Source: Nocardioides potassii (GTDB lineage Bacteria > Actinomycetota > Actinomycetes > Propionibacteriales > Nocardioidaceae). Taken from it: 64,000 bases of DNA. Numbering within the stretch: the first letter of the stretch is position 1; each line of letters opens with the position of its first letter. Positions 3,024 to 64,000 of this stretch are shown piece after piece. The notes beneath the pieces were generated by a model. It had not been told where the DNA came from. It saw only the letters and a program-made list of their open reading frames with translations, and did no database searches. The stretch lies in contig NZ_JAKJHZ010000009.1 of assembly GCF_021648885.1 (NCBI RefSeq), positions 62,001 through 126,000 of the forward strand. The letters are read 5' to 3'. A program made the translations under genes and the position numbers.

Positions 3024-3159
3024 GAGCGGTGGTCCACCCACATTCCGCAGACGGATCATGTGGGTGGGCCACCGCTCGCGTCGTGTCGAGGCCCGACACG
3101 CCGGCCAGCGGTGGTGAGGCCACATTCCAGACCAGCAGAAGGTGACTCCACCACCGCTC
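3024..3159. repeat. Composite palindromic repeat unit A (two 54-bp palindromes plus linker)
   Basis: The first palindrome (3024-3077) has 20-base arms at 3024-3043 and 3058-3077 that pair at all positions but one G-T. The linker (3078-3105, 28 bases) contains a perfect 7-bp hairpin CGTGTCG/CGACACG at 3082-3100. The second palindrome (3106-3159) is degenerate: its outer arms AGCGGTGGT/ACCACCGCT still match but the inner part has decayed. The same layout recurs at 62018 and 63200. The unit begins 22 bases after the biotin carboxylase stop codon. No T-run follows, so a simple intrinsic terminator is not obvious. Confidence 0.85.
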
Positions 3160-61252: not shown

Positions 61253-61992
61253 AACTGACCCTGAAGATCTGGCGCCAGAGCGGCCCCACGGCCGAGGGTG
61301 CGATCCACACCTACCAGCTCGACGACGTGTCCCCCGACATGTCGTTCCTGGAGATGCTCGACGTCCTCAACGAGCAGCTCAACGACCAGGGTGAGGAGCC
61401 GGTCGCGTTCGACTCCGACTGCCGCGAGGGCATCTGCGGCATGTGCGGGCTGATGATCAACGGCGAGGCGCACGGGCCGGAGGTCACCACGACCTGCCAG
61501 CTCCACATGCGCTCCTTCACCGACGGCGAGACGATCACGATCGAGCCGTGGCGCTCGGACGCCTTCCCGGTCGTCAAGGACCTCGTCGTGGACCGCGGCG
61601 CCTTCGACCGGATCATCCAGGCCGGCGGCTACGTCTCGGTCAACACCGGCTCGGCGCCCGAGGCCCACTCCGTACCAGTCCCCAAGGACGACGCGGACCG
61701 TGCCTTCAACGTCGCGACCTGCATCGGCTGCGGCGCCTGCGTCGCGGCCTGCCCCAACGGCTCGGCCTCGCTGTTCATGGGCGCCAAGGTGACCCACCTC
61801 GGCCTGCTCCCCCAGGGCCAGCCCGAGCGCGACGAGCGCGTGGTCAACATGGTCGCCCAGCACGACCACGAGGGCTTCGGCGGCTGCACCAACATCGGCG
61901 CCTGCACCGCCGCCTGCCCCAAGGAGATCCCGCTCGACGTGATCTCCCAGCTCAACAAGGACCTCCGCACGGCCATCAAGCACGGCCACTGA
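61249..61992 (+). CDS. Succinate dehydrogenase/fumarate reductase iron-sulfur subunit, second complex
   Basis: A 247-residue iron-sulfur protein. The [2Fe-2S] site is [10 protein letters not shown]. The two C-terminal clusters use [12 protein letters not shown] and a second set beginning [12 protein letters not shown]. It overlaps the flavoprotein gene by 4 bases and ends the operon. A composite palindromic repeat unit starts 26 bases after its stop codon. Confidence 0.94.
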
Positions 61993-62017
61993 GCGTCGTC
62001 TGCTGTTTCGTCCGCCC

Positions 62018-62154
62018 GAGCGGTGGTCCACCCACATTTCTGGGCTCAGGAATGTGGGTGGACCACCGCTCGTCCGCGTGTTGGGCGACGACGCGCCCGT
62101 GGGCGGTGGTCCAGCCACATTCGGTGCTGCAGGAATGTGGCTCCACCACCGCTC
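62018..62154. repeat. Composite palindromic repeat unit B (two 54-bp palindromes plus linker)
   Basis: The best-preserved copy. The first palindrome (62018-62071) has perfectly complementary 22-base arms at 62017-62038 and 62051-62072. The linker (62072-62100, 29 bases) holds a 5-bp hairpin CGCGT/ACGCG. The second palindrome (62101-62154) pairs in its outer and inner parts but has a fixed central mismatch, with the right arm reading GGCTCCACCACC. The last bases of the unit form part of the stop codon of the DUF559-like gene. The unit lies between convergent genes. Confidence 0.9.
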
Positions 62155-63094
62155 AAGCCGCTCGCAACCTGCGAACGAGGTCCGTGATCGGCCGGAACAG
62201 GCTGTCCCAGTGCTCGCCGAAGTGCGGCGGGGGTCCGTCGTACCCGCGCTCGACCAGTGCATGGTGGACCAAGCGCACGACGGACTTCGGTGATCGCATC
62301 CGCTCCTTGGTGACCAGCTCGTAGGGCACGGCGTGCCGGCGGTAGAGGGCGTACCGGTCGATGTCGGCGAGGTACTGGCCCCGCTCGCCCTGGTGCTGCC
62401 CGCCTTCGAACTCGACGACCTGCTCGTAGTGCGCGAACCGGAGGTCAGGCGTCAGCTCGACCCCGGGAGCCACCTCGATCGCCACGTTGACGTCGGGCAT
62501 CGGCATACCCGCGAACACCACGTAGGACAGCAGCTCCGCCTCCTTCATGGATCTGCAGCGCCCGTCGAGGAACGGCAGGACGTACGCCGTCTCCGGCACG
62601 CCGCGACGCCACTTCTCCTCCGTCAAGACCTGGTCGAGGAGGCCGAGATCGAGCCGTTGCTTGTTGAGCAGCACACAGCCCATCGTGATCGCGTCGATCA
62701 GGCGTGAGTCTGCGCACAGAGCGACGAAAGCGGCTTCGACGCTCACCCCCGCGTCGTCGGACGGCGGCATCTTGACGGTGCGGTGGAGGAACACGCCGTC
62801 CAGCTCGAGGTGGAGGTCGCCCTCCACCACGAAGTGGAGCGGCCACGCGTTGCCCAACGAGAACCCGAGCTGGCGCAGTCGGGTCGTCGCCGTCGTACGC
62901 GCTGACTCCGGGAGGGCCAAGCGTGCCGCCTCGACGTGGTCGGCCCAGGTCATGTCGTGGTCGCGGTGGACGTAGACGCCCTTGTGCAGCCGCCGGAACC
63001 GCACACCCTCGAGCACGCGAGCCGGGACGCCCGCGTCGAGGGCGTCCAACCGTCCGAAGGGCCCGTGGAGGAAGTCGTCGGGAATCGTGAACAT
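62153..63094 (-). CDS. DUF559/AbiEi-like endonuclease-domain protein
   Basis: A 313-residue cytosolic protein. The N-terminal part (about 15-45; ARVLEGVRFRRLHKGVYVH) resembles the winged-helix start of AbiEi-type proteins. The C-terminal part (about 225-285) has the Vsr/DUF559 nuclease-like pattern: an Asp in LTPDLRFAHYEQVVEFEGG with Glu and Gly further along, then GQHQGERGQYLADIDRYALY. Such proteins are numerous in actinobacteria and their role is not established. No toxin partner gene adjoins it. It is bracketed by two copies of the composite repeat, with its stop codon inside unit B. An upstream start at 63154 is possible. Confidence 0.78.
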   Translation of the reverse strand: MFTIPDDFLHGPFGRLDALDAGVPARVLEGVRFRRLHKGVYVHRDHDMTWADHVEAARLALPESARTTATTRLRQLGFSLGNAWPLHFVVEGDLHLELDGVFLHRTVKMPPSDDAGVSVEAAFVALCADSRLIDAITMGCVLLNKQRLDLGLLDQVLTEEKWRRGVPETAYVLPFLDGRCRSMKEAELLSYVVFAGMPMPDVNVAIEVAPGVELTPDLRFAHYEQVVEFEGGQHQGERGQYLADIDRYALYRRHAVPYELVTKERMRSPKSVVRLVHHALVERGYDGPPPHFGEHWDSLFRPITDLVRRLRAA

Positions 63095-63199
63095 CCGCCC
63101 ATCGCCCCACGTCGGCGGACACTCGCGCTCGTACGAGCACGTGGGCCTGTGCACACGTCGCCCTCACGCCCGACTGTGGACGATCAGTGGCCCGGTGGG

Positions 63200-63336
63200 A
63201 AGCGGTGGTCCACCCACATTCGGCGATGCGAGAACGTGGCTCCACCACCGCTCGGTGGTGTGTCAGGTGCGGACACGCCCGTGAGCGGTGGTCCACCTAC
63301 ATTCCGACGCACGGAAATGTGGCTCCACCACCGCTC
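63200..63336. repeat. Composite palindromic repeat unit C (two 54-bp palindromes plus linker)
   Basis: First palindrome 63200-63253, linker 63254-63282 with the 5-bp hairpin GTGTC/GACAC at 63260-63276, second palindrome 63283-63336. Layout and length (137 bases) are the same as unit B. Both right arms read GGCTCCACCACCGCTC, so each palindrome has mismatches at the same central positions, and the orientation is the same as in units A and B. It ends 9 bases before the stop codon of the YihY-like gene and lies upstream of the DUF559-like gene. Confidence 0.9.
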
Positions 63337-63345
63337 GGCGCAGGG

Positions 63346-64000
63346 TCAGTGGCGGCGGCGTACAACGGCTACGACCGCGAGCATCGCGGCGGCACCGGCG
63401 GCGAAGGGGCCGACCGGGGAGGCGGGGGCGGCCGACGCGGATGCGGGAACGGCGCCGGCGACTGCGGCGAGGTCGATCCGCGGGCCCTCCACGGTCTGCT
63501 CGGCGACGAGGCCGGCCTCGCGGGCGGCGCGGGCCTCGGGCGTCGTGTACGCCCACGATGCGGCGTACACCACGACGCGGGAGAAGTAGTTGATCCACAC
63601 CAGGAGGATCAGGGCGATGCCGAACGCCTGGAAGGCGTCCGAGCTCGCCGTGGACTTCAGCAGCAGCGTCGAGACCTGCTTGAGGACCTCGAAGGCGATC
63701 GCACCCAGGAGCGCCCCGGACCACAGCGATCGGGTCGGGATCTCGGGGGTGGCGAGGAGCTTGAAGAAGGCGAAGAAGAGGACGGTGTTGGCCGCCATGC
63801 CCACGGCGACCGCCAGCACCACGAGCACGACCGCGCCGACGGGCCCGAGGTCGAGGAAGTCGAGGATCGGTCCCAGCACCTTGGTCGCCACGCCGGACAC
63901 CGCGACGCTCACCAGCAGGATCGATCCGAGCGTGAGCAGCGCCAGCACGTCGCGCACCTTGCCCGCCACGAAGCTCGGCTGGTCCCGATCCGGCTCCTCG
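63346..64000 (-). CDS. YihY/BrkB-family membrane protein, 5' partial
   Basis: The frame is open through the right edge, so the N-terminal part is missing. The visible C-terminal 218 residues have at least four membrane helices, with the YihY/BrkB pattern: LFFAFFKLLATPEIPTRSLW, GALLGAIAFEVLKQ and ALILLVWINYFSRVVVYAAS. A linker (about 60 residues, Ala/Pro-rich) leads to one more helix ending in RRRH. The family was once annotated as ribonuclease BN, which is not supported; its function is unknown. The stop codon lies 9 bases from repeat unit C. Confidence 0.85.
   Translation of the reverse strand, partial: EEPDRDQPSFVAGKVRDVLALLTLGSILLVSVAVSGVATKVLGPILDFLDLGPVGAVVLVVLAVAVGMAANTVLFFAFFKLLATPEIPTRSLWSGALLGAIAFEVLKQVSTLLLKSTASSDAFQAFGIALILLVWINYFSRVVVYAASWAYTTPEARAAREAGLVAEQTVEGPRIDLAAVAGAVPASASAAPASPVGPFAAGAAAMLAVVAVVRRRH

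Follow-up and report, generated by a model that had tools for sequence, protein, structure and literature searches.

Palindromic Repeats in Nocardioides and a Candidate Partner Protein with AbiEi-Like and Vsr/EDxHD-Like Halves

Introduction

The window considered here, that is, the whole stretch of DNA that was analysed, comprises 64,000 nucleotides of Nocardioides potassii. Towards its end, two arrays of palindromic units (B and C) enclose a gene, and the question raised by this locus is what these units are and whether the protein encoded between them reads them. In Nocardioides, a genus of soil bacteria, dozens of evenly spaced hairpin-shaped DNA repeats are found at gene ends. The known dedicated partner of REP palindromes is the RAYT transposase. 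The earlier note on this DNA had described the copies as sharing one polarity, marked by a fixed non-pairing core, and had proposed a directed element read by a protein or copied by a mechanism with polarity.

Palindromic Units in the Window

Each unit is an imperfect palindrome of 50 nt (Table 1), and the typical layout consists of GCGGTG, 6 core bases, CCACATTC, 10 loop bases, GAATGTGG, 6 core bases, and CACCGC. The left arm is GGTGGTCCA in all four units of arrays B and C, which agrees with the earlier reading, as do the positions of both arrays; the right arm is likewise GGCTCCACCACC in B2, C1, and C2. The combined arm pattern gives 3 matches in the window and 0 in 100 shuffles, and the left half-site, with up to 3 mismatches, occurs 8 times as compared to 0.01 expected. 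As RNA hairpins, four window units reach -25 to -55 kcal/mol, and unit B1 forms a 26-bp stem of -54.7 kcal/mol, which has no polarity. Searching positions 61900-63500 against Rfam gave just sub-threshold chance matches to microRNAs and one weak sRNA.

Table 1: Positions of the arrays, their units and spacers, and the gene in the window.
Feature	Position	Strand	Remarks
Array A (third window array)	3026-3157		82-nt spacing; next to tRNA-Ala; cores unlike arrays B and C
Palindrome unit A1	3026-3075	+	adjoins tRNA-Ala
Palindrome unit A2	3108-3157	+	
Array B	62020-62152		two 50-nt palindromes with starts 83 nt apart
Palindrome unit B1	62020-62069	+	fully paired
Array B spacer	62070-62102	+	33 nt; hairpin signal not above shuffles (z -0.50)
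Palindrome unit B2	62103-62152	+	touches stop codon of nuclease-like gene
Gene of AbiEi-like plus Vsr/EDxHD-like protein (predicted)	62153-63094	-	313 aa; between arrays B and C
Array C	63202-63334		two 50-nt palindromes with starts 83 nt apart
Palindrome unit C1 (H1)	63202-63251	+	arms 63202-63221 and 63232-63251; unpaired core
Array C spacer (H2)	63252-63284	+	33 nt; small hairpin possible, -19.7 kcal/mol, z -2.76
Palindrome unit C2	63285-63334	+	

Spread, Spacing, and Placement

The window's own genome (G000) has 4.28 Mb in 15 contigs. Two overlapping searches with half-sites found 67 and 75 places in it, as compared to 2 each for the reversed controls, and 23 sites carry 1-5 units each (20 loci and the window). 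A set of 210 units, selected by consensus, was obtained from five genomes, namely G000, G012, G021, and G020 (20 loci each), together with the window and G005 (4 loci); for G012, G021, and G020, the 20 loci each are those among the half-site matches listed, so that their arrays number at least as many. Unit counts refer either to the 206 of 210 that are exactly 50 nt long or to the 199 that are distinct, and the unit of L117 falls below the threshold.

In the five genomes, unit starts are 83 nt apart in 76 cases and 82 nt apart in 25, with other distances (61 to 165) in 18. At the loci with homologues of the gene, 117 of the 149 calls have a unit length of 50-51 and 20 have one of 58-61, and the centre spacing is 72-73 in 19 of 63 cases and 82-83 in 31, with composite calls at 30-41 in 9 and others in 4. 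Such increments of roughly one turn of the helix suggest that the DNA is read by a protein as a duplex, with a folded strand as a conceivable alternative.

Arrays prefer the ends of genes. With a simple gene caller of our own, 59 of 90 arrays, which include orthologous sites and hence are not independent, lie between convergent genes, 31 between codirectional genes, and 0 between divergent ones; for comparison, the 55 gene pairs of the window comprise 12 convergent, 32 codirectional, and 11 divergent pairs. In the window's genome only, the 21 arrays divide into 14, 7, and 0, respectively. For the 90 arrays, the median distance from a facing 3' end is 27 nt.

Unpaired Core and Polarity

Pairing over the 199 distinct units is found in 26-48% at core positions 7-10 and 12, in 57-69% at positions 17, 18, and 20, and in 89-100% at positions 1-6, 11, 13-16, and 19. 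The high pairing at positions 1-6, 14-16, and 18-20 is partly built in, because the unit consensus fixes these positions and leaves only 7-13 and 17 free. Position 9 pairs at 0.29 as compared to 0.39 predicted from base composition, and position 10 at 0.26 as compared to 0.50; the central mismatch is thus conserved in position, as had been claimed. The mean number of core mismatches is 3.20 versus 2.95 ± 0.09 when the arms are reassorted (199 units, those of the same array not being independent), with corresponding values of 2.70 versus 2.24 ± 0.15 in G000 and 3.68 versus 2.91 ± 0.16 in G020.

Arms were classified by positions 9-10 as A (CC) or B (TG or GG), classes that were defined after the cores had been inspected, and on this basis 206 units comprise 31 AA, 51 AB, 68 BA, 4 BB, and 52 others (P 1.5e-14; about 2.5e-6 taking one unit per array). 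Where polar units adjoin each other in an array, 54 of 55 cases show the same polarity (90 arrays, five genomes), an agreement which derives in part from tandem duplication. Among the arrays of the window's genome, 10 are AB, 5 are BA, and 6 are without clear polarity, contig directions being arbitrary; of its 13 exact copies, 9 lie on the plus and 4 on the minus strand of their contigs, and those on contig C9 are distributed 4 and 4 per strand. Both array polarities are present in each of the four well-sampled genomes. In G012, which is a single contig, one half contains 7 BA and 6 AB arrays and the other half 2 BA, and an AB array near 3.256 Mb lies close to a BA array near 3.274 Mb. The first 6 kb of this contig, inspected by eye, carry nitrate-type genes and are unlike dnaA. 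Given that opposite arrays lie close together, polarity probably tracks replication direction in no simple way. The non-pairing core and the polarity hold for the family, and polarity belongs to the array, not to the genome. The shared polarity originally attributed to all copies is therefore true within arrays and fails genome-wide, where both strands and both AB and BA arrays occur; in the window it applies to B2, C1, and C2 and does not apply to B1, which is a perfect palindrome.

The Protein Encoded between Arrays B and C

It is plausible that this polar element is read by a protein, and the gene lying between arrays B and C encodes a candidate. The frame of this gene is open to 63154, and the start was set by alignment with relatives, of which those with names are mostly from Nocardioides. 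The structure predicted for the 313-aa protein has a pLDDT of 93.7. Residues 1-177 align with the AbiEi antitoxin 6y8q (Z 9.4, 170 aligned, rmsd 5.0) and residues 182-285 with the catalytic domain of I-Bth0305I (Z 10.1, rmsd 2.7, 97 of 97 residues), the C-terminal half being more weakly similar to Vsr (Z 7.9). Foldseek gave no match at E <= 0.001, its best values being 0.0015 for AbiEi and 0.26 (probability 0.99) for I-Bth0305I. All 48 members share six invariant residues, E185, D217, E228, E230, H234, and D244, of which E185, D217, H234, and D244 are candidate catalytic residues of nuclease type (EDxHD). The protein is thus predicted to consist of an AbiEi-type half, presumably DNA-binding, and a Vsr/EDxHD nuclease-like half.

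Profile matches are weak and concern MTES_1575 in 7 of 48 members, AbiEi_4 in 6, DUF559 in 6, and NCBIfam vsr in 2 (best E 0.0017), while with the PADLOC AbiEi models as many as 24 members give a match. A sequence search of the PDB returned just two weak matches (E 0.081 and 0.87), and PHROGs, searched for a phage origin, gave no match for the 5 members tested. The structure alignment omits L233 and L258 (in-frame stop), L263 (truncated), L282-L289, and L238, L240, L260, L273, and L279 (matched span not a multiple of three). The homologue looks broken at 7 of 55 loci, which are the two with the stop in frame and the five with the irregular span, and this suggests that the gene is dispensable.

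Palindromes beside Close Homologues

Arrays stand on either side of the gene in the window, and the same holds for its homologues of 57-65% identity in G012, G021, and G020. A full-length or nearly full-length homologue with at least 44% identity is present in 14 of 37 genus genomes, the window's own included, and all six genomes rich in the window-type half-site are within the seven that have a homologue of at least 57% (Fisher 3e-6). The excess of GCGGTG-N37-40-CACCGC over the control has a median of 42 in the 14 genomes with the gene versus 6 in the 23 without it (P 5e-6, kinship ignored). An excess is also seen where no close homologue was detected, in G031 (44 versus 11 in the control), G016 (45/21), and G011 (37/11), where the gene may have been lost or a different enzyme may be at work, and G005 has four palindrome sites without a close homologue. 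Conversely, the homologue is accompanied by little excess in G008 (21/14) and G023 (27/15), and a first scan found no framed palindrome beside the homologues of G023 and G010.

A scan by homologue alignment gave 63 loci, 50 of them with at least 40% identity (L227-L275 and the broken L279); some named loci probably duplicate G genomes, e.g., L241 and G020, and the sets are not independent. Units in the CGGTG frame lie within 800 nt of the gene in 47 of the 50 and on both sides in 39, the unit finder having called none at L261, L265, and L279. Over 55 loci, the gene flanks (86 kb) contain 149 units, some of them composite, versus 5 in 334 kb elsewhere. Similarity between upstream and downstream flanks reaches at least 15 in 49 of 52 loci (3 of 55 were skipped for short flanks, and the score of L277 may partly reflect G and C runs) as compared to 4 of the 406 shifted positions taken from those loci. 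Inside the palindrome the sequence varies by clade, and the outer CGGTG is mostly constant. The link between palindrome and gene holds almost throughout the closest subfamily and becomes patchy among more distant members.

Distant Homologues and Private Palindromes

At three loci, the Actinomadura homologues (27-28% identity) stand between copies of a GTTGA-ended palindrome, which a fourth locus has downstream, and four Actinomadura genomes contain 124-217 half-sites each versus 3-8 in the control. The same palindrome on both sides is found also at a homologue of Homoserinibacter and at distant homologues in G045, G027, G049, and G038. G049 has 64 half-sites versus 0 in the control; 24 of these 64 are an identical single arm, CATCAAACTGTGGGGTTCTGG, whose partner arm is not among the matches listed. 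In 16 more distant loci (L211-L226), the same palindrome is present on both sides in 4, a single palindrome in 5, and none in 7.

The 30 PF18741 loci include 13 large proteins, and among the 17 others a strong hairpin is nearby in 6 and on both sides in 1. Flank similarity is at least 16 in 11 of the 14 scored loci other than those of large proteins (3 of 30 loci being too short), whereas the 13 large MTES_1575 proteins score 10-13, which is the chance level because the upstream scoring stretch falls inside the gene.

Several paralogues may coexist in one genome, some of them with a palindrome of their own. In G064, a palindrome is next to 7 of 11 paralogues examined; all differ, and two paralogues have it on both sides. 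In the window's genome, a paralogue of 27% identity (L377, G000:C7:271781-272692) is flanked by ACACGTGTCCGNGANGTGGCCC palindromes, whose half-site occurs 60 times in G000, 18 in G012, and 21 in G021, as compared to 0-3 in the other genomes and 0-4 in the control. ACACGTGTCCGNGANGTGGCCC palindromes also flank the L377-type paralogue in G012 and G021, and the palindrome of the G017 paralogue differs from ACACGTGTCCGNGANGTGGCCC.

History and Turnover

The gene has sdhB and brkB as its neighbours in 21 loci of the closest clade, and from this constancy it follows that the gene was inherited in place there. In other clades, the ten neighbours of seven loci are unrelated genes, i.e., the chromosomal homes are different. 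Many G000 arrays occupy the same intergenic sites as arrays in G012, G021, or G020. At variable arm positions, G000 arms have a likeness of 0.75 to one another, 0.50 to the orthologous array, and 0.51 to any array of the other species, and 23 of 23 site pairs across species fall below the first of these means; in the closer pair G012-G021, orthologous arms are 0.70 alike versus 0.57 for unrelated sites. Loops of different arrays are near random (0.475 versus 0.433 for random sequence, G000). Within arrays, loop identity is 0.69-0.79 and unit identity is 0.85, and the units of one array look like tandem duplicates.

Since arms evolve jointly and loops do not, either the arms are selected to fit the protein or the arms alone are copied. 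Shared sites and near-random loops leave recent copying of whole units between sites unsupported. Slow turnover or selection on target sites is supported. Recent transposition is likewise unsupported. One site was compared in 30 genomes over 420 nt beside a conserved block, with G029 giving no usable alignment; arrays are present in G000, G012, and G021, a remnant in G007, and none in 25 genomes, and no clean insertion boundary or target duplication was definable among the 30.

Relation to Known Systems

The REP/RAYT system, or REPtron, resembles the present one in a gene flanked by its own palindromes, in dispersed intergenic copies, in tandem arrays, and in a stem mismatch, which is conserved in E. 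coli REP as well (PMC8266576, PMC2817692). The REP head is a conserved tetranucleotide, GTAG (PMC8266576). In contrast, units here are mostly 50-61 nt long, have phased spacing and no GTAG-like head, and belong to Actinobacteria; in the last four spacer positions before units the commonest base reaches 42-54% (74 spacers), so that no tetranucleotide is fixed. The enzyme also differs, as it is predicted to have an AbiEi-like plus Vsr/EDxHD fold and no HUH. The transposase search, carried out with the PF01797 profile (HUH Y1 transposase), had no match in the 37 genus genomes, among them that of the window, and was positive in 2 of 58 relatives, which both belong to another genus, and in 5 of 14 control genomes. 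The system would work like a REPtron but is not a member of REP/RAYT.

As regards EDxHD homing endonucleases, the predicted structure shares the catalytic-domain fold of I-Bth0305I. That enzyme is described as forming a dimer on a target of nearly 60 bp (PMC3943268), which is close to the unit length here. Unlike I-Bth0305I, the present gene is free-standing, with none seen in an intron or intein, is fused to an AbiEi-like half, and is flanked by palindromes that are also dispersed over the chromosome. The N-terminal half has the fold of the AbiEi antitoxin of type IV AbiE systems, but here it is joined to a nuclease-like C-terminal domain, and no adjacent AbiEii toxin gene was seen in the loci examined. 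Indeed, there is no AbiEii neighbour in the window (sdhB, brkB) or in the 21 sdhB-linked loci and no toxin among the 10 neighbour proteins of the seven other loci; one ABC-type ATPase neighbour matches AAA_21, whose description mentions AbiEii.

The predicted C-terminal fold is shared with Vsr, DUF559, and MTES_1575 nucleases, whose profiles some members match weakly. Vsr is a mismatch-repair enzyme, and to our knowledge no palindrome partner is known for any of these. MTES_1575 was named from a giant multidomain protein (PMC3710099). No paper linking such proteins to palindromes was found in the open-licence PMC literature, which is not proof of absence. The pairing of repeat and enzyme looks not to have been described before.

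Proposed Explanation and Its Rivals

The protein whose gene lies between arrays B and C probably has the units as its targets, and the two together would form a REP-like system with an unrelated enzyme. This proposal starts from the association with the gene, the dispersal of the palindromes and their stepwise spacing, the types private to several homologues, the fold, and the invariant residues, all of which are observed, and adds binding, cutting, and copying by the protein, which we infer. A dimer would bind the two inverted arms, with half-sites 30 bp (about three helical turns) apart and a centre of about 10 bp of free sequence, and units seven or eight turns apart would put neighbouring dimers on one face of the DNA. 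The protein would nick or cut in or beside a unit, and repair from, or duplication of, another unit would then keep and multiply the copies. As the specificity of the protein changed, the arms would change with it, and sites at gene 3' ends would persist because they do the least harm there or because the hairpins end transcription.

The main rival is that the palindromes are fixed binding sites of the AbiEi-like protein, a regulon or a DNA-organising set, kept under selection without copying, whose arms change together as every site must follow the protein. This is a serious reading that we consider rather unlikely. It accounts well for array sites common to several species, for helical phasing, and for arms that are alike within G000 and no closer between orthologous than between unrelated sites, with loops not homogenised; by itself, however, it does not explain the tandem duplicates within arrays, the different chromosomal homes of gene and palindromes in different clades, or the conserved nuclease-type residues, and the site with arrays in just part of the genus argues against it. 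We lean towards a system of target sites that the nuclease maintains and gradually spreads, rather than towards purely selected binding sites.

That the units are ordinary bidirectional terminators or mRNA-stabilising hairpins, with the nuclease gene as a bystander, would fit the placement of arrays between convergent genes and close to facing 3' ends, as well as the strength of the RNA hairpins. It is nevertheless improbable, given that no T run follows arrays B and C on either strand, that the arm sequence is conserved beyond pairing alone, and that members of one gene family in several genera have palindromes on both sides, with some paralogues having their own; a terminator role may coexist with the target-site explanation. 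Inverted repeats that are dispersed would also be expected of MITE-like non-autonomous insertion elements moved by an unlinked transposase, a very unlikely origin in view of loops that differ between arrays, phased spacing, and the same gene family flanked in several genera. Classical REP elements mobilised by a RAYT (HUH tyrosine) transposase recall the present case in their dispersed palindromes, flanked gene, and E. coli-type stem mismatch. They can hardly be at issue here, since units have no fixed tetranucleotide before them, and the lack of a PF01797 match in the 37 genus genomes contradicts this origin.

On the target-site explanation, a protein family without known function gains a candidate substrate that is readable from the genome for many members, and homologues with different palindromes offer ready cognate and noncognate pairs for specificity, cutting, and the unpaired core. 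Whether AbiEi-Vsr fusions, of which some Actinobacteria have several paralogues, constitute a new class of repeat-maintaining enzymes is in our opinion evenly balanced. Each gene would then have a private palindrome family, recognised by its protein as a long, helically phased dimeric target, kept uniform in its arms, and spread slowly, and a REP-like structure would arise by homing-like chemistry instead of RAYT transposition.

Other Palindromes beside the Arrays

A second palindrome type, GCGGTGCGTGAGGAGG..CCCCTCACGCACCGC, adjoins arrays L102, L107, L109, L110, and L113 of the window's genome, and it also flanks the homologue in G007 and in N. furvisabuli L232, which are perhaps one genome. 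In addition, the arrays at L198, L199, L200, L229, L232, and L234 are accompanied by a perfect hairpin, CGAGGGCCGGGGGAGACCCCCGGCCCTCG in form, which is conserved and may be a terminator.
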